From Agaricus subrufescens (Eukaryota > Basidiomycota > Agaricomycetes > Agaricales > Agaricaceae), in contig JAQOTE010000037.1 in assembly GCA_029945375.1 (NCBI GenBank), positions 62,001 through 126,000 on the forward strand: a DNA stretch of 64,000 nt, given 5' to 3'. Under the pieces are notes generated by a model, which ran no database searches, had not been told where the DNA came from, and saw only the letters and a list, made by a program, of their open reading frames with translations. Shown piece by piece: positions 38,426 through 62,107 of this stretch (within the stretch, counting starts at the first letter, position 1; each line of letters opens with the position of its first letter). Made by a program: the position numbers and the translations under genes.

Positions 38426-40880
38426 ATGCCGCCCCGCAAGAAGAGAGTCAAGTTCAAGGAGTGGCTACTGGGTTTCCTTCTATCAAAATCAAAGAATGGT
38501 GCTCGTGAAGGTTTGTGGCTCATTCAACTAACGCTCTATGGGGCTAATCAGCGCTTGTTTCACGATACGCAGCATCAGCAGGCTTCTTTGAAAATGCAGA
38601 AGGCGTCGCTGTAAAGGATTCCATCATGACATCTGTCCGAGGAAATCAGCATAATAATATGGTGAACAGTACCATAAATCATCATACGGTGAACACCAAT
38701 GCAATCAATATACAAGGTGAAAACACCACGGTGACGCAGAGTAAGCAATTCACAATTTCAACGTCTATCCTTTTTCACTTTGGCTTTGTCTAGTCATGAA
38801 TTTACTCTCGCAACATATCATCCAGGGCGCCGCTCATGATTCCTCCGCTCGCTCCCCTCCTCCACGTTGCCACCCGAATACACGTGTCAAGCTCATTGCT
38901 CGTGTCACTACTTGGTTTGAGGATCAAGATCTGCAGGAATGGCTATTATGGATTACCGGTCCCGCTGGCGTTGGCAAATCTGCCATCATCCAAACCTTTG
39001 CCGAGTATCTTGTCAAGTCTAAATCCCTTGGAGCGTCCGTTTTTATCTCTCGTCCAAACAAGCGCAACAACCCAAACGGGATCTTCATCACCATCGCCTA
39101 CCAGCTGGCCACTCGCATCGAGGCATATCGCACTTACATTGTCGAGCGAATCAGTCTCGATCCAGAAGTGTTACGTGGAGACATGGAGGCCCAATTTTCG
39201 ACGTTCATCGTTGAGCCATTTGTGGAGAGGAAGATTGGTGCAGGTGGTAAACGGTGGGGTGTATTACTCGATGGGCTTGACGAGCTACGAGGAGAGGATG
39301 CGCAGTGCACCATCATCAATCTCATCAGCACCTTTGTACGCGATCACAGCGACACGCCCCTTGCCTGGATCATAGCCAGTCGTCCCGAGTCACACATATC
39401 AAATACGTTTGACGATGATGAAGTGCAGCCCAGCTGTCGCAAGGAGTACATTCCCATTGACTCAACGGAAGCGTGCGAGGATGTTGAGCGATTCTTGCGA
39501 TCGAGCTTCAAGGCGATACAGAAGAAGTATCGCCAGTCTCTTCCGAGTGACTGGCCCACCGACACCGACTTTTTGCAGCTAACTGTTGCTGCCTCAGGCC
39601 TTTTCGTGTATGCTCAAGTCGTGATGGATTTCATCAGAGATCCAGACTGTGCTGATCCAGCCTTGCGGTTTGAGATTGTGGTATCTGTCATCAGTCGTTC
39701 TACTCATGTTCCAACAAACGATAATCCTTTTGTCCACCTGGACGCATTCTACCACGAAATTCTTTCCTCCATATCACCAGCGCACTGGGAAGCGGCGAAA
39801 TTGTTACTTGGATTCACTGTTCACGAGATAAATCAACTTCGTCTCGAAACATTCCGGACGCTCAGAGGAATGTCCATACTCTTCAACCTTAACCGAAATA
39901 CGGTTTACGCATGTCTAACCAAGTGCCGCTCTGCGCTCAAGATTCCGGATTGGAAAGTTGCGCACAAGCAGAACTTGACGTTTCTTCATGCATCGTTTTC
40001 CGACTACCTCAAAGACTCAAGGCGATCCGCAGACTATTATGTTGGTGATATCACCGACATCGAGAGTGTGGCGGCATCAAACCTTGTCGAGCTGTGGAAG
40101 AAGTGCAGCGGAGATGATATCGCACCAGGTATGTGCCGTGTGTCAATCCCCATACTGAAAGTTGACGTTATGTTGGCTCCAGCGTTAATTAAATCTACCT
40201 GGCTTCAGTATTGCTCAACAGTGAGCGGCGAGAAAGTGACATCGGCAGTTGTAAAATTCCACGCAGCACTCTTCCAAGATATCGTTTCCTCTGTTTCAAG
40301 GTTTCCACGCAAAACTCGGCACATAGGGGGTGACAGGTACTTACTGCCTGACCGGTACGAACTGCCGCTACTAGAAGTACACATGGCGAAGCTATGCTAC
40401 CACCTCTCTGCGACTGATTTAGCAGATATGGTTCACTATGAGGTACATATCCCCAACACTCTTCATTTTCCTCCCGGCACTCAGTACTCTCACGCAGGGT
40501 TCACTCTCAAGCACTAACCAGAAACTTTTGCGGAAAGTTCAACTTGGGGACCTCACGTTCGAGCACCTTAATCAGACAGAAATGAGCCCAGCAAAGGTTT
40601 ATCATGGGCGTATGGAGAAGCTCATCAGGAAGGGCTGGATACTGAATCGAGTGAGCGTGCCCATCTTGTTTTGATTCAAACTCCTCTGACTATGTTCTCA
40701 TCTTTCACACAGCCGCGCTCAAGTGCTGAATTAAACTCGTTTGTATCCGAGCTCGAAGTCTTTCAGCAAACCTCGCCAGACCATAATGTTGTTGTTTTTG
40801 GAGGCGTACCTAGTGGGCGGGTTGTAGGAATTAGAAGTACAGACGACACGTACTATTATGTGATTCCTTATCCTGAATAG
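38426..40880 (+). CDS. NACHT-domain STAND NTPase, tandem copy 2, 740 aa
   Basis: Exons 38426-38510, 38573-38740, 38794-40442, 40498-40650 and 40713-40880 give 741 codons with stop. The exon plan equals copy 1 and exon 3 is exactly 1649 bp in both. Walker A is GPAGVGKSA and Walker [10 protein letters not shown]. From about residue 90 to 590 it is nearly identical to copy 1, while exons 1-2 (KKRVKFKEWLLGF, GFFENAEGVAVKDS, VNSTINHHTVN) are closer to copy 3. It is intact, in contrast to the adjacent decayed GTPase piece. The downstream frame after the 40443-40497 intron ends with CYYVIPYPE-like residues as in copy 1. Confidence 0.87.
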
Positions 40881-41631
40881 CATTGTCAATTAGCTTCCAA
40901 TGTCTTCTTCACCATCAGGATCGCCTTTGATACTGATACCCAGCTTGCTATTGCTTCCAGCCATGTCTTGGAGATCACGAACTATGATAGACAAGTAATT
41001 ATATGAAGATTAATTGTTTGTGGTCCGATCCAGATCTTGTTCAAGCGATGAGTTTGGCCATGTGATGCTGAGTACGGCGTCTCTATCATTGAGGCGCTGA
41101 TGTCCTGTTCCTACATACATTGTTTACATCTTGCCAGCTCAGATAAGGGGACTGGAAAAATGTTTTGGTGACGTGATATCGGCCTCAAAAACTTGCCATC
41201 GGTCGCTCATATGACTCATATGAGTTGAATAGTTCTTTTATTTTGCACACCTAACTGCACCTCTGCTTTTGTAATACTCGAAATCTCAAATGAAGCAGTG
41301 GGAAGATTCTTCTTGGTATTTTCATAGAGGTCTAGCCTGCGGGGCGGGGGTGTCAAGTTGATAAAAAAGAATGATTGACGTACTGGGGTCTGAATGATCT
41401 TGAGAAAGCTGCTGAGTGAAGTAAAACAATGAGGGTTCCACGAAGTGGTGAAATGCGAAAACGGGATCTTGAAGGAAGAGATGGCTGGCCTGATACGATA
41501 GGTGCCAAGACAAGTGTGGATACAAGTGTTGATGACAAGTTCTAGTGAACGTGTGCAGGGTAGACCAAGATTGTCATAAGGGGATTCTGGGCTGTAGGTC
41601 GGCAGGGATTGTATGTTCTTTCATACTTGCG
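40881..41631. repeat. 3' flank of tandem unit 2
   Basis: This noncoding stretch is homologous to 36550-37534 with indels. No gene was seen. Confidence 0.6.
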
Positions 41632-41790
41632 CAAGGAATCAAAGCAAGGAGGCGACAGTGATGAGGGGCAGCGAGGAGAAAAGGCTGGCTGGTCTACCGT
41701 GCGCAATGATGGCGGATGCGGTCTGGGGAGAACGACAGTGCAGTGGCAAATGCACGACGAAAGCCCCGGCCAACAATGTGGACGCGATTT
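41632..41790 (-). pseudogene. TypA/BipA GTPase relic 2 (exon 1 only)
   Basis: It matches the exon 1 region and first intron border of the GTPase gene (ACCGTGCGCAATGATGGCG, then GATGCGGTCTGG). The start codon region is lost and there are deletions. The rest of the gene is absent. Confidence 0.75.
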
Positions 41791-41976
41791 TTCGAGGGGG
41801 GGAGTGTCACGTGTGTTTTATTTATACCCGAGTAATTTCTTACTGGCCGTGCTATGTTTATGGGTGGCTTCTTGGGCAAATGCCGAGCACCGTTCACGAT
41901 TCGGTGGTGCAGGCAGTGCCTCGAGGCATTTCCTTAGTTTTTCCCACCACCACCGCTACTTTCTTTGCTGTACAAA

Positions 41977-44420
41977 ATGCCGCCCCGCCAGAAGAGAGTC
42001 AAGTTCAAGGAGTGGCTACTGAGCTTCTTGCCATTACAATCAAAGAATGGGGCTCATGAAGGTTAGTGGCTCATTCAACTACATATCTACGGGTCTGATC
42101 AGCGATTACTTTACCATACGCAGGATCAGCAGGTTTCTTTGAAAATGCCCAAGGCATCACTGTGAAAGATTCGATCATGACGGCTGTACGAGGAGATCAA
42201 CATAATATAGTGAACAATACAGTGAACAATACGGTGTTCAATACACGAAGTGAACACACCACAGTGACGCAAAGTATGTAGCTCCAAATTTCAATTTCTA
42301 CTCTAATTCACTTCGGCTTTGTTAGTCATGAATGTACTTTCGCAACATATCATCCAGGGAGCCGCTCATGATTCCTCCGCTCGCTCCCCTCCTCCACGCT
42401 GCCACCCCAACACCCGCGTCAAGCTGATTGCTCGTGTTACTGCTTGGTTTGAGGATCAAGATCTGCAGGAACTGCTGTTGTGGATCACCGGCCCCGCTGG
42501 CGTTGGGAAATCAGCCATCGTCCAGACCTTTGCCGAGTATCTCGTCAAGTCTAAATCCCTTGGAGCGTCGGTTTTCATCTCTCGTCCAAACAAGCGCAAC
42601 AACCCAAATGGAATCTTCATCACCATCGCCTACCAGCTGGCCACTCGCATCGAGGCATATCGCACTTACATTGTCAATCGAATCAGCCTAGATCCAGAAG
42701 TATTACGTGGAGACATGGAGGCCCAATTCGTGGCATTTATCATTGAGCCATTTGTGGAAATGAAGATTGGCGCAGGTGGTAAACGATGGGGTATATTACT
42801 GGATGGGCTTGACGAACTACGAGGAGAGGATGCGCAGTGCAACATCATCAATCTCATCAGCACCTTTGTGCGCGATCACAGCGACGTCCCCCTTGCCTGG
42901 ATCATAGCCAGTCGTCCCGAGTCACACATATCAAATACGTTCGACGATGATGAAGTGCAGACCAGCTGTCGCAAGGAGTACATTCCCATCGACTCGACAG
43001 AAGCATGCGAGGATGTCGACCGATTCTTTCGATCGAGCTTCATGGCGATACGGAAAAAGTATCGTCAGTCCCTTCCCAACGATTGGCCCAACGACACAGA
43101 CTTCCTGCAGCTGACTGTTGCTGCTTTGGGCCTTTTCGTGTATGCTCAAGTCGTGATGGATTTCATCAGAGATCCGGATTGTGCTGACCCCGCGTTACGG
43201 TTTGAGATTGTGATATCTGTCATCAGTCGTTCCCCCCATGTTCCTACGAACGATAACCCTTTTGTCCACCTGGACGCATTTTACCGCGAAATCCTTTCCT
43301 CAATATCGCCAGCACACTGGGGTGCGGCCAAATTGTTGCTTGCATTCACTGTACACGAGGTAGATGGACTTCATCTTGAAACATTCCGGACGTTCAGAGG
43401 AATGTCCATACTCTTCAACCTCAACCGAAATACGGTTTACGCGTGTCTGACCAAGTGCAGATCCGCGCTCAGGATTCCGGATTGGAAAGTGGCACACAAG
43501 CAGAATTTGACATTTCTTCACGCATCATTTTCTGACTACCTCAAAGACTCAAAGCGATCTGTGGACTACTATGTTGGTGATGTTGATGACATCGAGAGAG
43601 TCGTGGCATCAAACCTTGTTGAGCTGTGGAAGAAATGTAGCGGAGATGATAATGCGCCAGGTATGTGCCGTGTGTCAATCCCCATACTGAAAGTTGACCT
43701 TATATCGCCTTCAGCATTGATTAAATCTACATGGCTTCAATATTGCTCCACAATGAACGGCGAGAAAGTGACATCGGCAGTAGCTAAGTTCCATGCAGCA
43801 GTCTTCCAAGACATTGTTTCCTCTATTTCAAGGTTTCCACGCAAAACCCGGCACATAGGGGCTGACAGATACTTTCCTGACTGGTACTCACTGCCGCTAT
43901 TGCAAGTACACATGGCGAAGCTATGCTACCACCTCTCCGCGACTGATTTAGTAGATATGGTTTACTATGACGTACGTATCCCAAACACTCTTCGTTTTCC
44001 GACACTCAGCACTCTCATGGCAGGGTTTACTCTTAGCGACTGGGCAGAAATTTTTGCGGAAAGTTCAACTTAAGGATCTCACATTCGGGCACCTAAATCA
44101 GACAGAAATGAGCCCAGCAAAGGTTTATAAAGGGCTCATGGGGAAGGTTTTCGTGAAGAGTTGGACACTAAATCGAGTGAGCGTGCCCATTTTGTTTTCG
44201 ATTTAAACTCCTCCAACTCTGTTCTTGTGTTTTTTGACAGCCGCGCTCAAGGGCTGAATTAAACTCGTTTGTGTCCGAGCTAGAAGATATTCAGCAAACC
44301 TTCCCACACCGTAAGGCTGTTGTTTTTGGAGGTATGCCTAGTGGGCGGGTCGTAGGATTTTACCACGCAATGGATACATGTTATGTGATCCCTTACATCG
44401 GTAGAATTAACGGCGATTAA
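41977..44420 (+). CDS. NACHT-domain STAND NTPase, tandem copy 3, 737 aa
   Basis: Exons 41977-42061, 42124-42273, 42326-43971, 44024-44176 and 44241-44420 give 738 codons with stop. Walker [10 protein letters not shown] and Walker [10 protein letters not shown] are intact. The core carries many more differences from copies 1 and 2 than those do from each other (for example FVAFIIEPFVEMK, GDVDDIERVVASN). The Asn-rich segment (VNNTVNNTVFN) is shorter than in copy 1. The last exon ends differently: after VIPY it runs on as IGRINGD into the palindromic repeat array, so array sequence supplies the stop codon. Confidence 0.87.
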
Positions 44421-47030: not shown

Positions 47031-47467
47031 GGTAGAGAAGGTTTCAGAGAAGCAGGCACGCGTCGAAGGAGAAAGTGTGGACTGAGGGACAAGATAGAAA
47101 ATTGGGGCGACAGGAGTGGAAGGAAAAAGTGGGCGACGTTCAAATCCAATTACACGTATAAGTCTTAACAGTCAGTCCTGGAAAAGCCTACGAATATATT
47201 CTCATATAAGGACTAGTACGAACATGTGGTTGCCAAATTTTCCCAATATCTCACTTAAGATCCTAGCATCTACCAGAGATGACCACGAAATTTGATAGAT
47301 TTTCGTACGATTGCCTGTTTTACTGCTCAAAATTTGGTATCTGAGATATAGTTTGCCTATACACACCATCGTTAACCCCTCCGTCTTCCATTGGTGTACG
47401 TCAAACGGCCATAGATCTTGAAATCTTCATTGAGTTGCTCATATCCGACTGAGGGTGAACCTGCCGC
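47031..47467. other. upstream flank of the proline-rich gene
   Basis: About 440 bp between the start codon at 47030 and the LTR. The inserted element lies in what was probably this gene's promoter side. No other feature was seen. Confidence 0.4.
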
Positions 47468-48818
47468 TGTAGAGGTAGTAAATGAAACGTTAAGGGTGTA
47501 GCTAGTTTAATAAACACACCACACTTCACTAACTAGTACTCGTAAATGCAAGTTCGTGGGGAGATGTTCAAGAGAAAAGGTTATTTCGAAGTTAAAGTTA
47601 ATAAAGAAGGAATTCCAAATAAAAGAATCCTCAAACTTGTTCTAGCTACGAACGGGCCGAAGGGCTACGTGAACTTTGAACTCTAGCTACTGCGTTGTAG
47701 CCAAACTAAGTCGCACCAATGACGTTTAATGAGGAGCTGCGATGATCTAACTCGCCAGTTATCCACCGACTCCGCAATTACAACTCAAACTAGCACCGAC
47801 TTACACCTCTGCTGGATATAAGCGTGCGATGGTAGCCTAGCTAGTCTCTTAAACTATCGTATCACTGTCAACCTAGTGAATTCTCTGAACGGGTAGCGTC
47901 TCCGACGTGAACTGCTGAACTAGTCTGAGTTTTTCTAGAAGCTCTCTCGCAAGCTAGTTGTTATTCACTTATTAGATCGCTACTTTACAAATCACGATCC
48001 TCAAAGCTAGACGTGGGCCGGAGATTGCTTGCCTTTCTTGACGCTAGCTAGAGGGTTTTTATATTCACATTATGCGTACAAATATTAACAAAGTAGTTCT
48101 ACTATTACTAAGGGTATCATATGGACTGGGCTGAGGGTACGGATAGATCCTATCCGCACCAATCATCATGGTTGGAGCAGGTGCTGCCTGACGTCGCTTA
48201 GCACCTTACCCCTTCCAACTAACAATGGTAGCTAGTCCCCATTGTGCTACCCCTGGCATCCACATGGGTACGTTGTCAGGTTTCAGAATGCCGAAGGCCG
48301 CTTGGCTGAACGTTCTATCCGTTCAGATTCGTTATCGATATGTGATGAGAATCCTAATCGGTGATATGTCCGGCTAGCTAGTGGGTCCACGATAATCTGA
48401 TGGGATTTCAGCTCGCTAGTTTGCGTGATAGCCGTTCCCTGTCCGAGCCGATGTCTTCTGCGGGTCAACTGCTTCGAATAGTATATCTCGGGAGGAGTGA
48501 TCTGTAGTTTCGCTAAGCATAAATCGACGTTTCGTCTAGGTAGTTAGAGCGTCATCGTCGTATTTCGGCCTAATTAGTTGTCACCACCAGATCTAATGCC
48601 TCTACTCGGATCATTCCTGGTAGCTAGTGACTATATTTGCCTTACACGGTACAGTTTTCCCGTATAAGAGTCAAGGCGGATTTATCAGACTACGAGAGAT
48701 ACTATTGAGGTGTCGAGAGATGGTTAGGTTCTGACCCTGCACCTTGGCTAGTGGGTGTTATACCCTTGTAAATACTAGCTAGTACATTTCTACGCGTAAA
48801 ACGGCGCGGGCCGTATCA
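47468..48818 (-). repeat. 3' LTR of Gypsy element 2
   Basis: 1351 bp starting TGTAGAGGTAG and ending GGGCCGTATCA. By hand count it contains about 23 CTAG tetranucleotides. A 61-codon minus frame inside it (48283-48468) is present in both LTRs but has no features of a gene. Confidence 0.93.
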
Positions 48819-49433
48819 TCTCCCCCTCACTATAAGCTGACTGTCCCCAGTCATCGAACTGCTGGATATTTCTGAGTTTATCGGGGCTGTTGCCATGCTT
48901 CTGGTATACTGACTTGTGCCTACGCGAATCCCTCGGGTGCTTTTAGCCACACGTGTTGCTGATGTTTTAGGAACTAGCGGTCTGCCTGTCATTTTAACTA
49001 CGGGGTGCGGAATATTGGGTACACGTGGCGAATATTTTTAGATCTCGGACCTCGGGGTTAACTAGTTAGTTCCCGGGTTGGCGGATCCTCCATCGCTTGA
49101 TCGGACTCGCTATCTCCGCTTCTATTTTTATACCTTATCCTCCGTTCCTCGATAGCTACTGATTCTTCTGTCTTTTTACTGTCTAGCTCACTTGTGTAGA
49201 GACAGAAACATCGCTGTAACTGGTATGGATGGACAAAACAGCTCGTCCGTGCTTTTTGTCTCGTCCGATTTTAATCGTGTTCCTGCGATGGCATAGGATT
49301 AGGTAGGTGGCGTTGCTTTATTAGGTACGGCGGTTACGGGCTCGGCCAACTACCAACTCGGCCGGGAACGCCTTATATAAACGTTTCCTTGGCTTGGTAG
49401 CGTGTCCTTTGTTTCTTGCCTCCTGCTTCTACG
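48819..49433. other. internal noncoding part of Gypsy element 2 with TATA-like promoter for antisense gene A
   Basis: About 615 bp. It starts with the polypurine tract (minus strand, 48819-48829). A TATATAA box at 49374-49380 lies 54 bp before the start codon of antisense gene A, a suitable distance for a plus-strand promoter. Confidence 0.6.
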
Positions 49434-51220
49434 ATGCCTGCTGCTAAACCCAAGCCTCGCAAGTCTACTGTCGCCTCGAAGCCTCAAACTGCTCCCAAAT
49501 CTAAGTCTCGGCCCCATATCAAACAGGAAAAGGTCGCCGCTTCTTCTGCTACTACATCTGCCCCTCCGTCGGCGGCGCTTGTGGCTTTGAAGGCCTCTTT
49601 GACTGCAAAGACTGCTGCTCGCGTACTCGCACAAGCTCGCGCTGAGGAGACTGCCCTCGCCGAGAAACTGGCGAAGTTGCAAGCCGCTGAACCGGACCCT
49701 CTTCCCGTTGTTGAGGTAGAGGACCCCGTTGCTTCTGATCCGTGAGTCGATCCTTAGGATGATACTAACTAGGGATGCTATTGATTGTTCGGTGTCTAGC
49801 GAGGATTCCGCCGATGAAACTGCCGAAGGAAGCGTTGACGAATTGGCTAACGATTCTGCTGAGCGCCCAGCCCGCGGCCAGAAGCGCCCTCGTTCTGTTT
49901 CGCCTGAGGTGGTTTCCGCTAAAGCTCCTCGCACCTCTGCGCGTCAGTCTGCTGCCGCTTCCAAAATCAAAGCTACTCCTCCCGCTTCCACGTCCAAAAC
50001 AACCCTCCCTGCCAAAACGAAAGCTCCGAAGGCGGACCCTATCGAGCGTCGCAAAGGCGCCTTGCTTACTATCACTGAGAAGGCCAAATTCGATAAGAAA
50101 CACCCCCCCCCGGTTCGTGGCAGTGGTATGTTTTGAAGACTTCCGTTTCTTTTTAAACTAGTTTCGCTGATCTGCTCTTTTACAGGCTTACGTCGTAGCG
50201 ACGACTTAGTACGGGACTATGGTATTGTTGCTGGCACCCCCATCCTTGATCATACGGCTAGCCTCTTCACTATGGCTTCTGATATCTGCTCTCGTGCGGT
50301 CCCGGATGGCGGTTGTATCTCTTGTTTGTTGAATTTCAACATCTGTGATCATTCTTACGATACTCTTTCTGGTGAGACTCGGGCAGCGACGGCGGACGTG
50401 CGTGACGAACTCAGCGCTGCTATAGCTGGTGCTGCATGTTTAACTTGTCGCGCTAAAGGCCGTTCCCATTGCTCCCACAATAAGCCTGCGCCTGTGGTCC
50501 AATTCTTGGCCGAGGCCCTCCGTTCTCATGGTCTCTCTAGCGAGTCCTGTACGTCTTTTCTCTTTGGTCTTTTTCTGTACTGATTTTGTCGGTTTTACTT
50601 CTTTTCTAGCTCTTCGTGTTGCCGCGCGCAATCTTAGCGTTGGTTACACTCAATTGACGATGCAACAGAAGCTTCTGTCATTGTCCCAAGCTCGTCTTCT
50701 GTCTGATTGTGCCTGTCACGCCGCGGAGATTTTGCAAGCTCGAGCAGTGCATGCCCACGATCCCGATTATTTCGTCAACGCCCATCTCGTCAAGGATCGT
50801 TCGCAACTCGATACGCTTTTCGAGATTTGTGAACAATTCTTTCCGTCCCCTGGCGCCCCCGAAGCTTCTCATGAAGCCGCTCTTCGTCTCTATCAGGCTT
50901 ACGGCGACATGATGAACTTTATTCATGAGACCGACGACTTGCACCGTGGCGGTCATTACTGGAGTAACCTCCCGGAGAGGCCCCCCCTTCATGCTAGTTT
51001 TTCAACTCGTAATACGATGGCTCAGGAGATGCACTTTCGCCAGCCAACTGAGGCTTCTGAAGATTCTGTCAATGACGAACTTGCTGGAGAGGAGGCCGCC
51101 GATGAAGATGCTTCTGAAGAGGAGGTGGCCGCTGAGGCCGTCGTCCCCATTACCTCCTCTTCTCGCTCCTCGCCGTCCAAAGGCAAAGGCAAGGCTGTGG
51201 TGGACGAGTCTGCCGTTTGA
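49434..51220 (+). CDS. antisense accessory gene A of Gypsy element 2, 535 aa, four exons
   Basis: Exons 49434-49741, 49800-50125, 50186-50548 and 50610-51220 give 536 codons with stop; introns are 58-61 bp. The N-terminal third is Lys/Ala/Ser-rich and probably disordered, with an Ala/Glu/Lys helix (near residues 55-85) and a basic KRPRS stretch that could be a nuclear signal. The middle has two similar cysteine clusters, CISCLLNFNICDH and CLTCRAKGRSHCSH, that is CxxC-x6/7-CxH, likely zinc-binding. The C-terminal part is helical and then very acidic. I recognise no known family. It lies inside a retrotransposon but opposite to gag-pol. The frame, splice phases and upstream TATA box argue that it is a real gene. 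Confidence 0.75.
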
Positions 51221-52027
51221 TCGTCGTCTGCTGGTGGGGTCTCCATTTCTGCCACGGTTTCATTTTATTTTTCTGTCTTATCTTGCTGTTGTCTTGTTTT
51301 GAATCTGTACTTAACTCGGGTATCCACTCCCATCTCTGTCGTAGTTAAAGTACTGAATTCAAATTTCTGTTGTTCCGTTCCTAGCTTGTGTTTCCGCAAA
51401 CAGCTAGCTGGTGCCCTAATCGGATTCTTGATCCGTAACTACAACTTATCTCCTTCTGGTGGCAATTATTTCATCGCGTCATACCTTTGAGATTTCGCTC
51501 TGTTATTTGAAATTGGGCTATCTGTAATCCGATCGCTCCTCTTTTTAGAGTAGATCGGAAGCCGATCTCTTCCCAGCATTAGGCTGGTTGCTTTTCTGTC
51601 TTTTTGCGAGGTAAAGGTCTTGTATATTCCCTTGCTGCTTACGGCCTGGCCTGAAAAAACCTACGGAGGTTCTCTTTTACCCCTCCCCCCCACTATATGT
51701 TTAAGACGCCCTCGTCGAACACTTAGTGCATAAGTTGCCCTTGTGACACCAGCTAGCACGTCCTTTACAAGTGTGCAGGTCTAAGCGAATGCCGCTTACA
51801 TTTTTCCGAACTACCAAGTTACGTGCTCTGGAGCATGTGGTCGGTAGGTACCCGAGAAGTGAACAAGTCCCCCTACCCATGCTTTATTATCGCTCACTAG
51901 CTAGCAGGATGCCATGGGTCGAGTTCGCTTCGTATCTGATTTTGCTGGTCGAGGCGGCTATAAAAGAGGCCCTCCTCGGTTTATTTTCAGACATCGAACC
52001 GCCTACCCTACCCTCGATTCGCCCTAC
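51221..52027. other. spacer between antisense genes A and B
   Basis: About 800 bp. It contains the presumed 3' end of gene A and a TATAAAA box at 51959-51965, 63 bp before the chosen start of gene B. No further gene was seen. Confidence 0.5.
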
Positions 52028-53362
52028 ATGTCTTCGACCCCTTCCAATGCCCCTACTGGCCCTTCTGGCGGTTTACGTCCCGATACGCAACTAGCTAAGA
52101 CCGAGTTGGAAGATAATGTCACTAATTATCACCATCGCGTCAATCGCTACGAGTCGAAACAAACCACTCGAGGTTCTGTAGGCAATGCCTTGTCCCTGGT
52201 GCCTGATTCTGCTGTGCGTTGTGGCTAGCTTGTCCTATTTTAGTTTTATCTAACGATGCCATACAGACTGCCTTGCTACAGCAGCTCAAGTCCGATCCCG
52301 CAGCCGTTGACAAGCCCGAGATATTCAAATTGCTGGGCCGTACTAAACGCTGTTTCGACCACTGGCAGGACAATTTCGAAAAGGATTACAAGTATCCCAC
52401 TGTATACTCCAGGCTAGTTGAGATCCTGGAACAGAAGACTCGTACCAAGGGTCCCTCGTCCGGCAACGCCACCCCTGTATCCAATATCAGCACTAAAGGT
52501 TCCTCGGCTGGGTCTGAGGCGTCTAACGTCCCTCCTTCTAAAAAGGTAAACCTCTAGCTACTTGCTCTATTAGGTGCTGATGAGGATTCAGCGTCGTTAT
52601 GCTAAGACTATTAAGTCCTCTGCCACTGTCGAGAGTAGCGATAGCGGTAGCGAAGAGGAGGTCGTTGTCGTCCCTCCTCATAATGCTCCTAAGCTTCCTG
52701 CTACATCTAACGTAAGCTGATCTTCTTCTTGTTTCTTAACTAGTGGTTAATATCGCCCCTAGGCCATGGAGATCGACGATGATGGGTCTATTCCTTCTCT
52801 CGTCCCCACTGCCCCAGGTAGTGAAGCCTCTTCCGCCAGAACTCGAAGCAACTCTTGTTCTGCTGCGGTGCGTGCAACTAACTACTTCTGATATCGCACC
52901 CATTCCTGATTAGTCCTCTCTATCTGGTCGTTTCAGGGGCCATCTCCTATTCGTCCCCAGACGGTGCGTATTCCTTATGCCACTGTGCCCGGCTTGGATA
53001 CTAGTAGCTGGACTTACAAACGCGCTGTACAGCTCCTTACTGGTATGGGTACTGCGGCATCCATAACTGCCCCGTTACATTCTGGTGCGGTATCTGCTAC
53101 TAGCTAGTTTATGATCTGTACTGATGCATATCTATTAGGCAAAGGCCTTCTTAGTGTTGTACAAGGACTTGCCGCTTCCGCCCTCGAGGTCGACCATGCC
53201 GCCCTCAAGACCTCATCCAAGCACAACTTGGAGGCTAGATACTTGGTCACTAATGGCCAATTAGTTTCGGCTGCTCAGGACTTGGAAGTTTCTGTACGCC
53301 GTTACGAGTTCCTCGCACAACAACAAGATACTTTGACGGGTATGCTTAACAAGGGCACCTAA
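52028..53362 (+). CDS. antisense accessory gene B of Gypsy element 2, multi-exon
   Basis: The frame starts at ATG 52028 (MSSTPSNAP). A GT-AG intron (52173 to about 52243) joins it to VLSNDAIQTALLQQLK. It continues through LLGRTKRCFDHWQDNFEKDY and Ser-rich acidic stretches (SSDSGSEEEVVVVPP), then PSPIRPQTVRIPYATVPG, and ends with a helical segment (53143-53362) containing LEVSVRRYEFLAQQQD. About seven short exons are needed. The third junction (near 52546-52575) would be a very short intron and is uncertain. No family was recognised. The helical ends and acidic middle suggest a protein-interaction role, which is only a guess. It ends 125 bp before the pol stop on the other strand. Confidence 0.6.
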
Positions 53363-53487
53363 CTAGCTAGCCTAGCCCCTGTCCCTTTTCAAGGTTACTG
53401 TAGTAGTTCTGTACTTCTGAGACCGTCCTGTCCTTTCCGTTGAAGATCGTGTCCTAGCTAGTGTTTGTTTCGCAATCTAGCTTTTTG

Positions 53488-56400
53488 TTAAGTGGTTGAG
53501 ACTACTAGTTCGACGTCTTTTTCCTCATCTAAAGATCTCTCGAGCTCTTGCTTCTCTAACAACTCCAGTTCTTCCTCAGTAGCGTCCAAGAGGCCGCGAA
53601 CTTTATCGCTGAATACGATTTTTCGCCTAGCTAGATAGGGCACTATCCTGTAGGCTGCCACCTTATTCTGCCATACTGAGCCGTCATATTCTGCCACAAG
53701 GTATGCTCCTCCTTTAAGCCTTTTGACGATAACCACTGGACCTAAGTATCTAGTTTTCATTTTCCTGTCTGCTGACATTTCTATAGCCGAATTTCTTACT
53801 AGAGCCAAATCTCCTGGTCCTAGATTGAAATCTTTTATTTTATGTTTCATATCTTCTTCCAGCTGCAAGGCCCGTCGAAGTTTTTCTTCACTAATTCTCT
53901 GTCGCATTTCTTCTACATGCGAGATGTGCTTAGCTAGCGCTTGCGCCCGTAGCCCTAGCAATTCTGCCGTGGATATCATCTTATTAGGGTAGCTAACTAG
54001 CCATGTTGCTTCTTCTATATCCAGCGGGATGGTTGGTTGGGCCCCAGTTATCATGAAATATGGTGAGCAACCTGTGCCTTTTCTGACTGTTATCCGGTCG
54101 GCCCAGGTTACGTGGTGTAATACCCAGAACCATCGTTTCAGATCTCCTCCGGTAGCCTTGTAAAGCATCTGCCGCAGATCCCAATGCGGTCTCTCAATTG
54201 TCCCATTAGCTTGTGAGTTATATGGGGAGATAGCTACTCCTTTAATCCCATATTTCTCCTCTAGCCATCGGACTGCTTTCCTAAATGGGGCACCGTTATC
54301 TGTGACAATTTTGACTAAGCTACCCCATCGGCATATTATGTCTTCGAAGAGCCAAGCCCCAATAGACTTGGCATCTTCTTTTCGTAATGCTCTGGCTTCC
54401 ATCCATGATGAGAGCGCACACCTCCCATGCACTATATGTTTACAACCGTTGGAGGCTGTAGAGATATGTACCGTATCGGCATGCAGAATCTGAAATATCG
54501 ATGGTGTATGGGTTACTACTGGCGGTAGTTCCATTGCCATCTTCTGTCTAGCTTGACACAGGTGGCAGGACTTGACGTACCAGGCTACGTCGCCTTCCAT
54601 CTCTGGCCACCAGAATCTCTGCGATACTAGCTTGTTGGTTGCGTACACCCCTCGATGTCCTAACTTGTCATGACACTGTTTCATAATGTACATGCGCTGA
54701 TCGATTTCCACAACTAGCTGTGGGTTCCCGGTTCCTGATATCTTCCTAAATAGCCGTCCTTGATCGTCTATCCAGAAATGTGAGGCTGCCCTGATGAACC
54801 TCGCTTGTTCTGGGGACATTTTCGATGTATTGACATTACTAGGGTTACTAGCTAGCCATTCTTTTATTCGAGTTAATTGTCTGTCCTGCATCCTTGCTTC
54901 GGAAGTACGCCTATCTTGATCATAAGGATCTTCCTCCGCATTAATTTCGTCTGAATCGTCATCTACTGTCGGCCCTTCAGGTTCTTGATACGTAGCTTGT
55001 TCCTCCATGTCTGCTACGTTATTCAGAAATATCCTCAACGGATCCGGACAGTCTGCGGACTTAGCCATTTGTCGTCTCTGCTGTATTTCTGATTGTAAAA
55101 CCTGGTTAGCTTCTGCTATTGTTAACTGTAGCAGACTATCTTCGTTCATTATCTGCTGTATGAAGCCTGTTCTGTCATCAATTTCCTCAATGAAGTCCTC
55201 TAAAGGCAAGGGATCCTCATCATCCGGGTTTTCCTTTACTAGTTCGAAGTCTCCTTGGTCATCTTCTGACACATCGTCGAATCGCCGTTCTATGGGATCT
55301 CCCGGATACCATTTGCGTCTAGATAACCCATCGGGTCCAAAAGTCTTTCCTTTCTTATGGAGTAAAACTAATTGGAAATTAGTTCGGATATAATCCGCCC
55401 ATCTGTTAACTGTTGCATTAGGTAACTTGCCCGGATTGTTTAACATTCCATGTAGATATTTGGCGTCCGTCTCGACGATGAGATTTCTGCTTCCTCTGAG
55501 CAAATAAACTTCTTCTTCTAGCGCCATTCTAAGTCCACACAACTCTCTCTTAGGTTGTGAATACCTCTGCTGCCTTTCATCCATCAAGATAGAGTTGAAT
55601 TTCACATAATGGATAATCTTCGGATTTTCCTCATCCCTTTGATAGATGTAGTATCCCACCGCGCGCCAAGAGGAGTCAACGGCTAACACTATCGGCTGAG
55701 TACTTGGAAATTTAGGATTTCGGGTATGAAAGCAACTAGCTATGCTGTCTTTTAGTCTTTGCTGTGCTAGTTCCTGCTCTGGCCCCCATATAAACGGTAC
55801 ACCCTTCTTACAGATATTATATAAAGGTGCTGCCAAGGTCACAAAGTTAGGAATGTGATTTCGGCATTGTACTGCCGTCCCTAAGAATGCTCTGACATCT
55901 GTAGTGTCGGTACATTCCCCCCAACGGAGTATTTTCCCTATGGCATCCCTAGAAGGTTTCCTACCTTTATATGAGCACTCAAATCCTACGATCGTGATAT
56001 AATCTGCACATATCGTAGTCTTGGGACCGGAGAAGGTCCCTCCTGAATATTTCATTCGTTGTAGGATCCTATTAACTGTCTGTAGATGCTCGTATACGAA
56101 TCGTCTGATGCCATGGTTTTCTTTTAAAACCTCGTAGCTAGTAGTAGACCCATCTAGTTCGTATCTGGTAGCGGGTCCTCGAATAGGCACGTCATCTATA
56201 TAGGGCAACGTATACTGAGGGATCTCTTCTCTGAGTATAAAGGTCACGTCCTCATGAAAAATAGGAACCGAATTTGTCCATCCCATCGGCAAAGTTACTA
56301 GCCTGAGGGCTCCGAAGGGTGACTGAAACGTAGTGAGATCTCTGGATGAACTAGCTAGTTTACGGTTATCGTACCCGACCCACAGATCAAGTACTCCTGT

Positions 56401-57198
56401 ACAGGCTCTCCCTGCAAAGTGCATAGCTAGTTCCTCAGTAGCTGGAGGAAGCCCTGAATGTGCGATCGTAACCCGGTTTAACGGTTCTAAACTGTGTACC
56501 AGACGGAGACTTTTTCCATCTTTCTTTAAGACACAAAACCATTTAGACCTGTACGACGAGTTTGATGGTTCATAGACTCCTGTATCTATTTTGCGCTTTA
56601 TTATACGACAGACTTCCTCGTATATGGCTGGGGGTATCCTAAACTGCTTTTCTACCCATGGGGTATGTGCCACTGTGGGTATTTCTACTGCTGGAAAGTA
56701 CTTTTCCTTGAAGCTACCTCGTTCACTGTCTTCCCAGGCAAAACACTCATTCTGCTGGGCGATCAGCCAGTGCATTAACTTTCGTTCTTCAGGCCATAAG
56801 AAATCTCCGCCGTGTGCGGTATCTAGTTTGTCCTTTCTTTCCTGAGTATAGCGCCCCTTGGCTTCAAACTCGGGTGGGTTTACCATTAACTTGGGCATTC
56901 CTTCTAACGGATCCCCAGTTATATCTCGCTCTATGCGGAATTTCGCTGGTAGCTCTCCCAGGACTGGTTTTACTTTTAGCGCCACGGGTTTATATTTCTT
57001 AGCTAGCACCATGGTTGGTTTCCACTGTTTATCTTCTTCGACTGCGACTACTTTATGGTATGGTTGGTAGTCTGTGGTGACGTTTTGCAGGTACTGACTG
57101 AAAATTGCCTTCTCAGGAAGGTCTACTTCTTCCAAGCTCTTCTGTAAATATACTAGTTTTACTTCTTCATCGTCTAGCTTGTTGGATTGAATCGGCAA
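53488..57198 (-). CDS. Gypsy element 2 pol: reverse transcriptase, RNase H, integrase
   Basis: A 1236-codon frame without breaks. RT has the catalytic YIDDVPI near residue 330. RNase H begins with LAVDSSWRAVGYY. The integrase has the zinc-binding pattern HDKLGHRGV then CHLCQAR, followed by HADTVH, VTDNGAPF and NGTIERP for the DDE triad. No chromodomain was recognised after it. The frame has no ATG at its beginning; it is open upstream through 57297, where it overlaps the end of the protease frame in the -1 phase. It is therefore probably made as a frameshift extension of Gag-Pro. Confidence 0.92.
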   Translation of the reverse strand: MPIQSNKLDDEEVKLVYLQKSLEEVDLPEKAIFSQYLQNVTTDYQPYHKVVAVEEDKQWKPTMVLAKKYKPVALKVKPVLGELPAKFRIERDITGDPLEGMPKLMVNPPEFEAKGRYTQERKDKLDTAHGGDFLWPEERKLMHWLIAQQNECFAWEDSERGSFKEKYFPAVEIPTVAHTPWVEKQFRIPPAIYEEVCRIIKRKIDTGVYEPSNSSYRSKWFCVLKKDGKSLRLVHSLEPLNRVTIAHSGLPPATEELAMHFAGRACTGVLDLWVGYDNRKLASSSRDLTTFQSPFGALRLVTLPMGWTNSVPIFHEDVTFILREEIPQYTLPYIDDVPIRGPATRYELDGSTTSYEVLKENHGIRRFVYEHLQTVNRILQRMKYSGGTFSGPKTTICADYITIVGFECSYKGRKPSRDAIGKILRWGECTDTTDVRAFLGTAVQCRNHIPNFVTLAAPLYNICKKGVPFIWGPEQELAQQRLKDSIASCFHTRNPKFPSTQPIVLAVDSSWRAVGYYIYQRDEENPKIIHYVKFNSILMDERQQRYSQPKRELCGLRMALEEEVYLLRGSRNLIVETDAKYLHGMLNNPGKLPNATVNRWADYIRTNFQLVLLHKKGKTFGPDGLSRRKWYPGDPIERRFDDVSEDDQGDFELVKENPDDEDPLPLEDFIEEIDDRTGFIQQIMNEDSLLQLTIAEANQVLQSEIQQRRQMAKSADCPDPLRIFLNNVADMEEQATYQEPEGPTVDDDSDEINAEEDPYDQDRRTSEARMQDRQLTRIKEWLASNPSNVNTSKMSPEQARFIRAASHFWIDDQGRLFRKISGTGNPQLVVEIDQRMYIMKQCHDKLGHRGVYATNKLVSQRFWWPEMEGDVAWYVKSCHLCQARQKMAMELPPVVTHTPSIFQILHADTVHISTASNGCKHIVHGRCALSSWMEARALRKEDAKSIGAWLFEDIICRWGSLVKIVTDNGAPFRKAVRWLEEKYGIKGVAISPYNSQANGTIERPHWDLRQMLYKATGGDLKRWFWVLHHVTWADRITVRKGTGCSPYFMITGAQPTIPLDIEEATWLVSYPNKMISTAELLGLRAQALAKHISHVEEMRQRISEEKLRRALQLEEDMKHKIKDFNLGPGDLALVRNSAIEMSADRKMKTRYLGPVVIVKRLKGGAYLVAEYDGSVWQNKVAAYRIVPYLARRKIVFSDKVRGLLDATEEELELLEKQELERSLDEEKDVELVVSTT

Positions 57199-57293
57199 GA
57201 CCTCACTGATATATGGCTGACTAGTGTCGGAGTCTTGACTGATGATGCAGGCCGCTTCTCCTTCAAGCCAGGGCTCGAATTCCTCGAAGCTAC

Positions 57294-57303
57294 TTAAAAA
57301 TTT
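57294..57303 (-). promoter_or_regulatory. candidate -1 frameshift site, pro/pol
   Basis: Minus-strand sequence GTA AAT TTT TAA contains the heptamer A AAT TTT directly before the pro stop. It fits the X XXY YYZ rule. The -1 phase opens directly into pol. Confidence 0.65.
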
Positions 57304-58367
57304 ACATCTACTGATTTGGGTAATTGTCCTCTCGCGTATGTTGACAAGGTAGCCTGCTCTTTAGTATTCGGATCTGTGATGTTTATATACTGAAGACCCT
57401 CCTGTGAGTTTACTATCTTGCTCTCGGTTATTACATCAAAAGGTCTGCCCAATAGTAATCTGTATGCTGCACCTTCCAGAATATGAACTTGCAAATGGAC
57501 TGTGATGTTTCCGAAGGTGAAGGGCACATTTCTAGCTACTCCTTCTGTTCGCGATACAGCACCATTAGCACCCATCATATTAATACTGAGCTTGGGGTCC
57601 CAAGTTATCTTGCATTCGCTGGCAGCTTGTTTAGACATGGACACGATTTGTGATCCACTATCTAGTAACGCTTCTTCTTCACAAACACGATTTACTAAGG
57701 CTGGGATTACTCTGAGATGCTCCATACCTTTGGCGGCTACTGCTTCTGTGCTAGCTACCGCGAAGATCTGTTTTTGTCGTTCGTTGGAATTCAACGTAGA
57801 CAAATATTGCATGATCGGATCTTCGATACGCCAATTTTGCACGTATATCCCCGCCGCGTTTCTAGCTAACTCGCTAGTGCGTTTAGGGATTTCCAGCGAA
57901 GCGGTATCTACTACATCCCAACCATTCTCCTGCGAGGAAGTACTGTTTAGTCCCGTTTCTGATCTTAACTCTGTTTCCACTTCTAGGGTGTTGTTTCCTG
58001 TAGGGACTCTTCTCTTACTGATCACTTCTTTCCACATTTCTCTGAGTTTAGGTGCCATAGCTAGTAACTCCTGCTGTGTTAAGGTAACCTCCTTGCCGAA
58101 TAGACGCGTCAAAACCTCTTTAATATCGACATTTTCCTCTACTTGAGTCTGATGTTTATAACTAGGAGGCTTTCTGGTCTCATTCATGTATCTGGCTGGT
58201 AAAGGTGGTACCTCCACTACTGGTTTCATAGCCGGCACTCTTCTATAAGGGAACACTCCTCTGTTGTCTGTAGTTCTATTTCTTTTCTCTGTATCGTCCT
58301 CGGTCGTCTGATCCTTCTGGAAGCGAACCTCTTTTCCAGAAGTCGACTTCTTCATTGGACTTTTCAA
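57294..58367 (-). CDS. Gypsy element 2 aspartic protease frame
   Basis: About 357 codons. The active-site region reads EEALLDSGSQIVSMS, and the second conserved segment is YRLLLGRPFDV, as in retroviral-type proteases of LTR elements. The frame overlaps the gag stop in the -1 phase. The nearest ATG is at 58355, 9 bases after the gag stop, so reinitiation is an alternative to frameshifting. The N-terminal 150 residues are hydrophilic and of unknown role. Confidence 0.87.
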   Translation of the reverse strand: MKSPMKKSTSGKEVRFQKDQTTEDDTEKRNRTTDNRGVFPYRRVPAMKPVVEVPPLPARYMNETRKPPSYKHQTQVEENVDIKEVLTRLFGKEVTLTQQELLAMAPKLREMWKEVISKRRVPTGNNTLEVETELRSETGLNSTSSQENGWDVVDTASLEIPKRTSELARNAAGIYVQNWRIEDPIMQYLSTLNSNERQKQIFAVASTEAVAAKGMEHLRVIPALVNRVCEEEALLDSGSQIVSMSKQAASECKITWDPKLSINMMGANGAVSRTEGVARNVPFTFGNITVHLQVHILEGAAYRLLLGRPFDVITESKIVNSQEGLQYINITDPNTKEQATLSTYARGQLPKSVDVNF

Positions 58368-58373
58368 AAATCC
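58364..58373 (-). promoter_or_regulatory. candidate -1 frameshift site, gag/pro
   Basis: Minus-strand sequence G GAT TTT TGA places a G GAT TTT heptamer directly before the gag stop. It is like the known GGAUUUA class of retroviral sites. The -1 phase opens into the protease frame. Confidence 0.55.
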
Positions 58374-60340
58374 GCCTTCTTGGCGGCGGTCCTCTGAGTA
58401 AACAATTTCATCATTTGCTGTATGAGCTCATCTTCCTCAGCCGTTTCCGGTCTGGCTTGTGGCATCAGGTTTTGTACAAATGTTTCCATTGTTGCTAGAC
58501 GACCTCTCATACGCTCCATTTCCAAAGCCTGTGCATTGGCTTTTTGTACATCCTCTCTTTTCTGGATAGCTACAAGTGGGATAGGCCTGGAGGTACTCGA
58601 ACTAGTTACTGAATACCCGGTATCTGGTTCGTCTTCTCCTTGGGGTAGCTCAGGCGCTCCAAAGATAAGAGCTGCCATGGAAGCGGGCAAGTATTTTTCA
58701 ACACTTTTTCTAATCGGTACTCCTGGTTCTCTGGGTATTCCGGAGCCATCTGCGAACCTTAGCTTCGACCCATCCTGTACTATTTTTCCGTCCTTCTCGT
58801 CCTGAGTTTTATAAGGACAGACTATCCATCGATGCCCTGTTTCATTACAATAGAAACAATTCGAATTTGCGTTCGAATTGCCTTGGTAGCTGGTCTGATT
58901 TTGTGACGGATTACGGTTCTGCTGATGCGAGTTAGTTGTTCCAAGCTTAGCGATACTGGCTGTTATATTGGAACTTAACGAGTCTACATAAGCTTGCATG
59001 CTCTTCTGGCTCGTTACTAACGATTCTTGCATCTCTTTTCGTCCAATCACTATGGAATCTTTTATCTGGCTAATATCTTGTTGCATAGCATCAATTTCCA
59101 TTTGCACAGAGGAGGACGAACTGCTAGTTTCCTTTTTGATATTAGAAGTGTGTGATCGAGGGTTCCGTTCTCGGGCTGCGTCTATCGCATATACTCCTGT
59201 CAGGCTGTTCCCGTTAACTAGTTCGACCGCTTTTCTGATTACTTCTGAAATTGTATAAGGATCCTCGGATCTTCCTTGTCCTTGTAATGCTTGACGGGTT
59301 CCTTGTAGACTTAGTCTGGCCACAAGTGCATCCCTGAAAGCTGGACTTAGAGTATTCACGAATTCTTCTACTAGCTCCCTGTTGGAGATAATCGAAGGTG
59401 GCGCTTGGCACTTATTTGCTTGCGACTGGAACTGCCGACGGAAACTAGAGAAGTCCTCCTGATCGGTTATTCCTATCTGTCTGAACTTTCTACAAATTGC
59501 CTTTAACTTGGCCACTGACCCTTTTTCTTCGGTCACTAGTTCAGGGTATTCCTCTTTTAATCGTTTTAGGAAGTTTGACCAATTCTGATTGGTGTATTCT
59601 TCAAAACTGATCCATTCGTCCCTGACGCTTTTGCTGACATAACTAACCATCCATTTAAGTTTTTCAGCGTCATCGGTAATACTAGATACTTCGAACTGAC
59701 GTTCTAGATGCCAGATGAAGTCTCCTAGCTTGTCTATTTCGCCGTCCCATTTGGGTGCGCCTTGGGAAAAAGGTGCTGGCATATGTGGTGAAGGCATGTT
59801 TTGTGCTGAGTTCGAGTTTGATGATGCTGATGGTGCGGGTACTCTTTGATTAAGAGTAGGGCTACTAGCTCGGCTGTTTGGTAAACTAGTTTGCGCTGTA
59901 TTAGGTAAAGGGGACACGGGCGAATTAGGCAGAGAGTGATAGACTGTGTTGTCTGCGGATTTAAACTGCCCTGGTATATCCAACTGTGATGAACTTTCGT
60001 CGAACACTGCTGGTTGATAAAATGGATTCGGTTCTGTGTCTGTGGGTGAAGAGATAACCGGTTCCCTAAATCTGACCGACCTAGATCCGCTAGCTAGTTC
60101 TTCTGATTGGGCGCTCGTTTGGCTTTCGCTAGTTTCGCGAGCTTTTTGTTTCCTAGCTTTACGCTTTTGGAATAAGATCTGATCAGGATCGTCTAGTCTA
60201 GGAACTAGTTCGTTTGACTGAGAATTGTTAGTCTGTCTCGCTCTTGGATTGAAACGCGACAGAGTTGGGCTGGTATTGTTTAACTCTATGAAGCTTGGCT
60301 TCCTAGAGTGCTGAGGTTGGTTTTTCTGTTGCTCAGGCAA
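58364..60340 (-). CDS. Gypsy element 2 Gag, 658 aa
   Basis: Starts at ATG 60340, about 85 bp inside the 5' LTR. The N-terminal 200 residues are Ser/Pro/Asn-rich. A retrotransposon capsid-like helical part follows (KWDGEIDKLGDFIWHLERQF, DEWISFEEY). A coiled-coil-like segment precedes a zinc knuckle of CCHC type, CFYCNETGHRWIVCP, near residue 500. The frame ends at a T5 run overlapping TGA. Confidence 0.9.
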   Translation of the reverse strand: MPEQQKNQPQHSRKPSFIELNNTSPTLSRFNPRARQTNNSQSNELVPRLDDPDQILFQKRKARKQKARETSESQTSAQSEELASGSRSVRFREPVISSPTDTEPNPFYQPAVFDESSSQLDIPGQFKSADNTVYHSLPNSPVSPLPNTAQTSLPNSRASSPTLNQRVPAPSASSNSNSAQNMPSPHMPAPFSQGAPKWDGEIDKLGDFIWHLERQFEVSSITDDAEKLKWMVSYVSKSVRDEWISFEEYTNQNWSNFLKRLKEEYPELVTEEKGSVAKLKAICRKFRQIGITDQEDFSSFRRQFQSQANKCQAPPSIISNRELVEEFVNTLSPAFRDALVARLSLQGTRQALQGQGRSEDPYTISEVIRKAVELVNGNSLTGVYAIDAARERNPRSHTSNIKKETSSSSSSVQMEIDAMQQDISQIKDSIVIGRKEMQESLVTSQKSMQAYVDSLSSNITASIAKLGTTNSHQQNRNPSQNQTSYQGNSNANSNCFYCNETGHRWIVCPYKTQDEKDGKIVQDGSKLRFADGSGIPREPGVPIRKSVEKYLPASMAALIFGAPELPQGEDEPDTGYSVTSSSTSRPIPLVAIQKREDVQKANAQALEMERMRGRLATMETFVQNLMPQARPETAEEDELIQQMMKLFTQRTAAKKADF

Positions 60341-60424
60341 GTGCCTTGAAGAAGTAGAAGTAAAAGGATATGAAATATCGAATAAAACCTTTACACTGAA
60401 ACTCCCCTCGCGGTGGGCTCCAGA
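60341..60424 (-). other. 5' untranslated segment and primer-binding-site candidate of Gypsy element 2
   Basis: The minus strand immediately inside the 5' LTR reads TC then TGGAGCCCACCGCGAGG. The TGG start fits a tRNA primer site (pairing with a 3' CCA end). The tRNA identity was not determined. Confidence 0.6.
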
Positions 60425-61774
60425 TGTAGAGGTAGTAAATGAAACGTTAAGGGTGTAGCTAGTTTAATAAACACACCACACTTCACTAACTAGTACTCGT
60501 AAATGCAAGTTCGTGGGGAGATGTTCAAGAGAAAAGGTTATTTCGAAGTTAAAGTTAATAAAGAAGGAATTCCAAATAAAAGAATCCTCAAACTTGTTCT
60601 AGCTACGAACGGGCCGAAGGGCTACGTGAACTTTGAACTCTAGCTACTGCGTTGTAGCCAAACTAAGTCGCACCAATGACGTTTAATGAGGAGCTGCGAT
60701 GATCTAACTCGCCAGTTATCCACCGACTCCGCAATTACAACTCAAACTAGCACCGACTTACACCTCTGCTGGATATAAGCGTGCGATGGTAGCCTAGCTA
60801 GTCTCTTAAACTATCGTATCACTGTCAACCTAGTGAATTCTCTGAACGGGTAGCGTCTCCGACGTGAACTGCTGAACTAGTCTGAGTTTTTCTAGAAGCT
60901 CTCTCGCAAGCTAGTTGTTATTCACTTATTAGATCGCTACTTTACAAATCACGATCCTCAAAGCTAGACGTGGGCCGGAGATTGCTTGCCTTTCTTGACG
61001 CTAGCTAGAGGGTTTTTATATTCACATTATGCGTACAAATATTAACAAAGTAGTTCTACTATTACTAAGGGTATCATATGGACTGGGCTGAGGGTACGGA
61101 TAGATCCTATCCGCACCAATCATCATGGTTGGAGCAGGTGCTGCCTGACGTCGCTTAGCACCTTACCCCTTCCAACTAACAATGGTAGCTAGTCCCATTG
61201 TGCTACCCCTGGCATCCACATGGGTACGTTGTCAGGTTTCAGAATGCCGAAGGCCGCTTGGCTGAACGTTCTATCCGTTCAGATTCGTTATCGATATGTG
61301 ATGAGAATCCTAATCGGTGATATGTCCGGCTAGCTAGTGGGTCCACGATAATCTGATGGGATTTCAGCTCGCTAGTTTGCGTGATAGCCGTTCCCTGTCC
61401 GAGCCGATGTCTTCTGCGGGTCAACTGCTTCGAATAGTATATCTCGGGAGGAGTGATCTGTAGTTTCGCTAAGCATAAATCGACGTTTCGTCTAGGTAGT
61501 TAGAGCGTCATCGTCGTATTTCGGCCTAATTAGTTGTCACCACCAGATCTAATGCCTCTACTCGGATCATTCCTGGTAGCTAGTGACTATATTTGCCTTA
61601 CACGGTACAGTTTTCCCGTATAAGAGTCAAGGCGGATTTATCAGACTACGAGAGATACTATTGAGGTGTCGAGAGATGGTTAGGTTCTGACCCTGCACCT
61701 TGGCTAGTGGGTGTTATACCCTTGTAAATACTAGCTAGTACATTTCTACGCGTAAAACGGCGCGGGCCGTATCA
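60425..61774 (-). repeat. 5' LTR of Gypsy element 2
   Basis: 1350 bp, same as 47468-48818 apart from one missing C in the CCCC/CCC run near 61195. Followed by CCGC, the probable target duplication. Confidence 0.93.
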
Positions 61775-62107
61775 CCGCCACCAATAGTTCCTGGTGTTTC
61801 ACTTCGGGCACTGCGTAGAAGTCGGAGACCACCGTATGTCTCGAAAATTTTACTGAGTTGCCCACATCGCGCCTCGGAAATCTAATCGTTGGGGGGATCT
61901 GCAGGCTTGAATTTCTTGCCCACATTAACTCTAGATCTGACCCGCAGAACCTAGATTTAATGGGGATTTTGAATTTTGTATGACATCTCCTTCGGCCGCG
62001 AAATCAGACCAAGAAATTAACATTAGTAGTCGGAAAGCACCCCTATCTTGAAAGATCCATGTTTGGCTGCATGAAACACACAACAGTAAAATTGGCTCTA
62101 CTACTGA
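61775..62107. other. flank between LTR and the next gene
   Basis: About 330 bp with no recognised gene. It is the 3' side of the leftward gene at 62108. Confidence 0.4.

Follow-up and report, generated by a model that had tools for sequence, protein, structure and literature searches.

Accessory genes which are read antisense to gag-pol are already known, for example, from Retand, Boty and, as HBZ, from human T-cell leukemia virus type 1 (HTLV-1); in long terminal repeat (LTR) retrotransposons they are poorly understood. In the parts of the articles considered here, the plant Gypsy elements Retand, Grande and RIRE2 are described with antisense open reading frames (ORFs) between pol and the 3' LTR, for which nuclear or DNA-binding roles were proposed, and Grande with a promoter upstream of the antisense gene (PMC11963269, PMC7264820); the word "intron" does not occur in the main texts of these two articles. 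In Botrytis cinerea, Boty-like Gypsy elements contain a gene in antisense orientation, brtn (Zhao 2011, cited after PMC7264820, PMC8365987, PMC4227169). HBZ is antisense to gag-pol, spliced, encodes a regulator and starts in the 3' LTR (PMC1459196). A mobile group I intron was found to harbor an antisense homing endonuclease gene with one spliceosomal intron of 47 bases, whose removal was demonstrated (PMC9548176). The present analysis concerns a Ty3/Gypsy-type retrotransposon of Agaricus subrufescens (assembly GCA_029945375.1, contig JAQOTE010000037.1), which carries two multi-intron genes, designated A and B, antisense to gag-pol. The stretch analyzed, called the window, comprises 64,000 nucleotides (C36:62001-126000 in our contig numbering); the genome searched consists of 44.65 Mb in 44 contigs. 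A and B are, with a probability of roughly 0.82, long-kept accessory genes of one Ty3/Gypsy lineage, which are spliced and whose introns survive reverse transcription.

As far as the cited portions of the literature describe them, Retand, Grande and RIRE2 resemble the window element in having extra genes antisense to gag-pol, situated in the interval between pol and the 3' LTR and kept across families. They differ from it, since the window element possesses two multi-intron genes with introns common to families, and the TRP28 domain (PF04195) was not found in A or B with Pfam. Boty, which can be compared by description only, is likewise a Gypsy element from a fungus and has an additional gene in antisense orientation. 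A and B share with HBZ, in the account cited, the position antisense to gag-pol and the predicted splicing; unlike HBZ with its start in the 3' LTR, they are two genes, with three and five introns, and their TATA-like motifs are located inside the element, past the LTR. The group I intron is, according to its description, also a mobile element with an antisense gene bearing a spliceosomal intron, but it is not a retrotransposon and the gene has a single intron. No report of conserved multi-intron or intron-bearing antisense genes in LTR elements was found in the literature searched, in which subscription papers were scarcely covered.

The two multi-exon genes are located on the plus strand, in the interval which separates the stop of pol from the 3' LTR (Table 1). 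Gene A (49434-51220) has four exons, separated by introns with lengths of 58, 60 and 61 bases, and a product of 535 amino acids (aa); gene B (52028-53362) has six exons, five introns and a product of 353 aa. Both spliced frames are open. Gene B and pol are convergent and 126 bases apart. An earlier note on this DNA had proposed two spliced genes between the pol stop and the purine tract, preceded by TATA-like boxes at 49374 and 51959; the genes were borne out, with corrected splice sites, and both motifs are present in the sequence.

When the final exon of gene A was used as query in a protein search, three weak matches of 29-31% identity were obtained, which led to a second Gypsy family. Between this family and the window, pol is 67% identical. 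The cargo of the second family comprises A2 with 734 aa and B2 with 447 aa, which keep the order of A and B and are likewise antisense to pol (A2 vs. A1: 28% identity over 197 aa, E 1e-23; B2 vs. B1: 26% over 375 aa, E 5e-22). A third family (contigs C4 and C13), with an integrase 73% identical to that of family 2, carries A3 and B3, which were read from the C4 copy only; the identity of B3 is 27% with B1 and 44% with B2, and that of the A3 core 24% with A1 and 47% with A2. Thus, three families, with integrase identities of about 69-73%, contain the pair in the same order and orientation. The earlier note had left it undecided whether the cargo was conserved across a family or captured once, and conservation is upheld.

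The introns are shared as well. All five gene B introns occur in the same order and with the phases 0,0,0,0,1 in the three families; introns 2, 4 and 5 occupy identical alignment columns, intron 3 agrees within one column, and intron 1 coincides in families 1 and 3, with a displacement of five columns, next to a gap, in family 2. Intron 3 of gene A is found in the same column in all three families. For intron 2 the phase is common to all three, but family 1 deviates by four columns, next to a gap. All three gene A introns are shared between families 2 and 3, and family 1 has one of its own.

Linkage of the cargo to pol was assessed with 45 gene A loci, which were picked by hand from the match lists (one row per locus; extra pieces of copies split by insertions were omitted). 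At 40 loci an integrase was present on the opposite strand, 2.1-3.9 kb downstream. Conversely, all 34 full-length integrase rows with at least 69% identity were paired with gene A, among the 85 of 268 candidates which were scored. The complete gene A match list of 101 rows contained no clear stand-alone host homologue. More distant pols (35-46% identity, 10 rows, 9 loci) had no gene A row, where a far-diverged gene could be missed; downstream of one of them, no match to A2 or B2 was obtained within 3 kb (A1 and B1 were not used as queries). The only homologue returned from outside the genome was a hypothetical protein of 556 aa from Agaricus bisporus var. burnettii (P0001, Agabi119p4_10687; E 2e-53, 44% identity). 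A protein search with the gene B alignment gave nothing at E up to 0.1; that with the gene A alignment also gave nothing, not even its own row P0001, and is no evidence of absence. Scans of viral contigs with the gene A alignment and integrase yielded no relatives.

The exons of A and B are under purifying selection. Ratios of nonsynonymous to synonymous substitution rates (dN/dS) between copies, calculated according to Nei and Gojobori, ranged for gene A from 0.176 to 0.35 in all 12 comparisons, in which dS reached values of up to 1.04; for gene B, the six sound comparisons gave 0.22, 0.12, 0.15, 0.14, 0.38 and 0.24. Several gene B rows were dropped: loci L044, L052 and L053 (0.92, 0.98 and 0.87) as misaligned, the stretch fetched being without all or part of the gene; L050 (0.41, 320 codons) with an internal deletion; L041 (0.67), which was partial and had six substitutions; and L020 (0.69), with three substitutions only. 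In 10 of 10 tests on exon sets, substitutions were in excess at third positions of the predicted frame, with p between 3e-3 and 3e-30, although related copies do not count as independent. The dN/dS comparison between copies, suggested in the earlier note, therefore speaks for constrained and not for neutral exons. The GT..AG borders were kept in 35 of 36 gene A introns (12 compared copies) and in 34 of 35 gene B introns (seven copies with a whole, aligned gene B). The gene A introns of L052 differ at 58 of 125 sites, which is about the expectation from its dS of 0.80; therefore, introns drift, whereas exons are held. In three copies dS was unequal between gene A and gene B (L048, 0.187 vs. 0.021; L020, 0.044 vs. 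0.004; L043, 0.067 vs. 0.198), which suggests recombination between copies.

A DNA search of the same genome with positions 49000-53500 as query confirmed that further copies of the element contain the genes: 24 matches were obtained, 19 with 99-100% identity, two with 95-96% and three partial ones with 87-91%. In the 19 young copies all predicted splice sites were kept; an open gene A was present in 17 of them and an open gene B in all 19, and 44 alignment columns were variable. On the LTR side their identity was 96.7-100% over about 1.4-1.5 kb; in L020 the match on this side covered 804 bases. No intronless copy was present among those aligned. Five of the 19 showed a 14-base length variant at 51641.

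According to the mechanism proposed here, A and B would each be read from the strand opposite to gag-pol, probably from a promoter of their own inside the element, and their messenger RNAs would be spliced in the manner of host genes. Since the genomic RNA is complementary to both genes, their introns would be reversed in it, without usable splice signals, and should stay. They would pass intact through reverse transcription, and A and B would then be read from the integrated DNA. This reasoning, which the earlier note had put forward, follows from the geometry and is supported, and we infer that intron survival is the cause of the antisense orientation. In laboratory retrotransposition indicator genes, the gene is also antisense to the element, and its intron, which has sense orientation in the transcript of the element, is spliced out of this RNA. 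The likeness to such genes, drawn in the same note, holds for the geometry of an intron-bearing gene antisense to the element and fails for the introns, since those of A and B are in sense to the cargo gene and should stay in the genomic RNA. A conserved pair with eight introns implies that a retroelement can retain spliceosomal introns over many cycles of reverse transcription if these are antisense; the family offers selection, intron landmarks and recent copies for functional tests. Such cargo genes may become annotated as host genes.

Lasting accessory genes, and no single capture, are indicated because three families share the pair and its introns, the exons are constrained, and the genes are linked to integrase. 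A single capture of host genes by one element, with amplification as passengers, would agree with the introns and TATA-like boxes of A and B, which resemble those of host genes, and with the absence of viral or transposon domains, none of which was found in A or B with Pfam; but the presence of the pair in three families, the constraint between copies, the pairing of most loci with pol and the lack of a clear host homologue in the match list make this quite improbable. A recent single capture is rejected, with the cargo in several families and no host copy elsewhere in the gene A and integrase match lists; an ancient one, at the base of the lineage, may have taken place. The antisense transcripts could also work as RNA, e.g., as double-stranded RNA tuning silencing, with the proteins mattering little. 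Antisense RNA regulation was raised as an alternative for plant elements in the part of PMC7264820 considered, and the convergence of gene B and pol would be suited to it, but dN/dS values well below 1 and frame-specific constraint point to selection on the protein, which renders this explanation unlikely; RNA and protein roles can exist together. That A and B are chance open frames or annotation artefacts is scarcely credible. The gene models were indeed made by hand and read from the DNA sequence alone, but homology extends across families (E values given above), a homologue in another Agaricus was predicted independently, and the intron agreement together with the third-position excess led to rejection of chance frames.

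Several points weigh against the view of A and B as long-kept, spliced accessory genes. Their transcription and splicing are deduced from sequence. All splice sites were hand-picked for open frames, including gene B intron 2 (52546-52591) and the donor of intron 5 (53085); the intron agreement is not fully independent, because in families 2 and 3 the sites were chosen with the homologue in view. The family 3 models require a GTCCGT donor in intron 1 of gene B and intron 3 of gene A, and a GC-AG intron. Five of the 45 gene A loci were without integrase pairing, among them a split copy (C5), a neighbour (C8) and a locus on C11 with no pol in the next 1.5 kb, and no gene B was present in the stretches fetched for L052 and L053. 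A and B matched no Pfam family (E up to 1), searches of the Protein Data Bank gave only two weak rows, both for B (E 0.66 and 0.94), and the fold model of P0001, with a mean predicted local distance difference test score (pLDDT) of 46, was too poor for use.

As to function, the residues C255, C258, C296, C299, H306 and C307 of gene A are invariant in an alignment of three sequences, and basic motifs resembling nuclear signals occur in A (KRPR) and B (KKRR). These features would be compatible with a nuclear or nucleic-acid role and are no proof of it. The duplicated Cys cluster mentioned in the earlier note is present in both parts, but family 2 has not kept the final His of either CxH; a nucleic-acid binding or regulatory protein, as suggested there, would be a guess from sequence. 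By analogy with plant antisense ORFs, for which such a role was proposed, and with HTLV-1 HBZ, for which it was demonstrated, the proteins would most likely act in the nucleus as regulators of RNA or chromatin of their own element; this assignment is tentative.

An internal polypurine tract is located between genes A and B. The purine motif at the 3' LTR (48820-48833) recurs there at 51683-51696, exact at both sites, where 0.75 occurrences with at most two mismatches would be expected by chance in the window. The tract was found in four of four family 1 sequences (window, L043, L044, L020), in eight of ten from family 2 (not in L052 and L053) and, in a variant form, in the one family 3 sequence; it could serve as another site of plus-strand priming. 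Antisense orientation and obligatory introns could perhaps, together with this tract, form a device which ensures that A and B can arise solely by nuclear transcription of integrated DNA, and never from genomic RNA or its translation. This would permit early/late or copy-sensing control as in complex retroviruses, with an independent origin in fungi, but we regard it as rather unlikely.

The host element (47468-61774) is a recent Ty3/Gypsy-type insertion. Its LTRs of 1351 and 1350 bases are 99.7% identical over 1359 aligned columns, and TG...CA ends, a putative primer-binding site and a polypurine tract are present. In a check for target-site duplications of 4-6 bases, with one copy inspected, only a 4-base match, CCGC, was found. 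The gag, protease and pol frames occupy 53488-60463 on the minus strand; RNase H precedes integrase in pol (RT_RNaseH 554-658, Integrase_H2C2 888-939, Pfam), as in Ty3/Gypsy elements, and no RVT_1 row for reverse transcriptase was obtained for this frame (Pfam, E up to 1). The Ty3_capsid match in gag was below the Pfam cut-off. The three frames overlap at 57294-57360 and 58364-58427, each being -1 relative to the preceding one; the candidate slippery words CCCAAAT and AAATTTT were noticed in the first overlap, none in the second.

Table 1. Features of the retrotransposon and its antisense genes (window positions).
Feature	Position	Strand	Basis
CCGC 4-base flank match, left; possible target-site duplication	47464-47467		flank comparison
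3' LTR (TG...CA)	47468-48818	-	LTR comparison; CA end at 48818
3' polypurine tract, adjoins 3' LTR	48819-48833	-	plus strand CTCCCCCTCACTAT at 48820-48833
TATA-like motif TATATAAA, 60 bases upstream of gene A start codon	49374-49381	+	sequence only
Gene A exon 1, start codon	49434-49741	+	spliced open frame, third-position test
Gene A exon 2	49800-50125	+	spliced open frame, third-position test
Gene A exon 3, both Cys clusters	50186-50548	+	spliced open frame, alignment, third-position test
Gene A exon 4, stop	50610-51220	+	spliced open frame, third-position test
Internal polypurine tract between genes A and B	51680-51696	-	plus strand CCCCTCCCCCCCACTAT
TATA-like motif TATAAAAG upstream of gene B	51959-51966	+	sequence only
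Gene B exon 1, start codon	52028-52213	+	spliced open frame
Gene B exon 2	52267-52545	+	spliced open frame
Gene B exon 3	52592-52711	+	spliced open frame
Gene B exon 4	52763-52867	+	spliced open frame
Gene B exon 5	52937-53084	+	spliced open frame
Gene B exon 6, stop	53139-53362	+	spliced open frame
pol frame, 1290 aa stop to stop; RNase H, integrase zinc-binding domain	53488-57360	-	ORFs and Pfam
Protease frame, 377 aa stop to stop; aspartyl protease, DUF4100	57294-58427	-	ORFs and Pfam
gag frame, stop to stop; weak Ty3_capsid match	58364-60463	-	ORFs and Pfam
Likely primer-binding site TGGAGCCCACCGCGAG	60407-60422	-	by eye
5' LTR	60425-61774	-	LTR comparison
CCGC 4-base flank match, right	61775-61778		flank comparison

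Elsewhere in the window, a second LTR element is located at 8330-17752, in which 199-base repeat pieces with 100% identity flank a single minus-strand frame of 2930 aa with matches to gag, protease, reverse transcriptase, RNase H and integrase. A stretch of about 1.1 kb within 27138-30647 is repeated 2.4 kb away with 82-84% identity. The region 34376-44395 contains three repeated genes for P-loop (NPHP3_N/NACHT) proteins, spaced about 3.5-4.3 kb apart, two of which were matched to Pfam.

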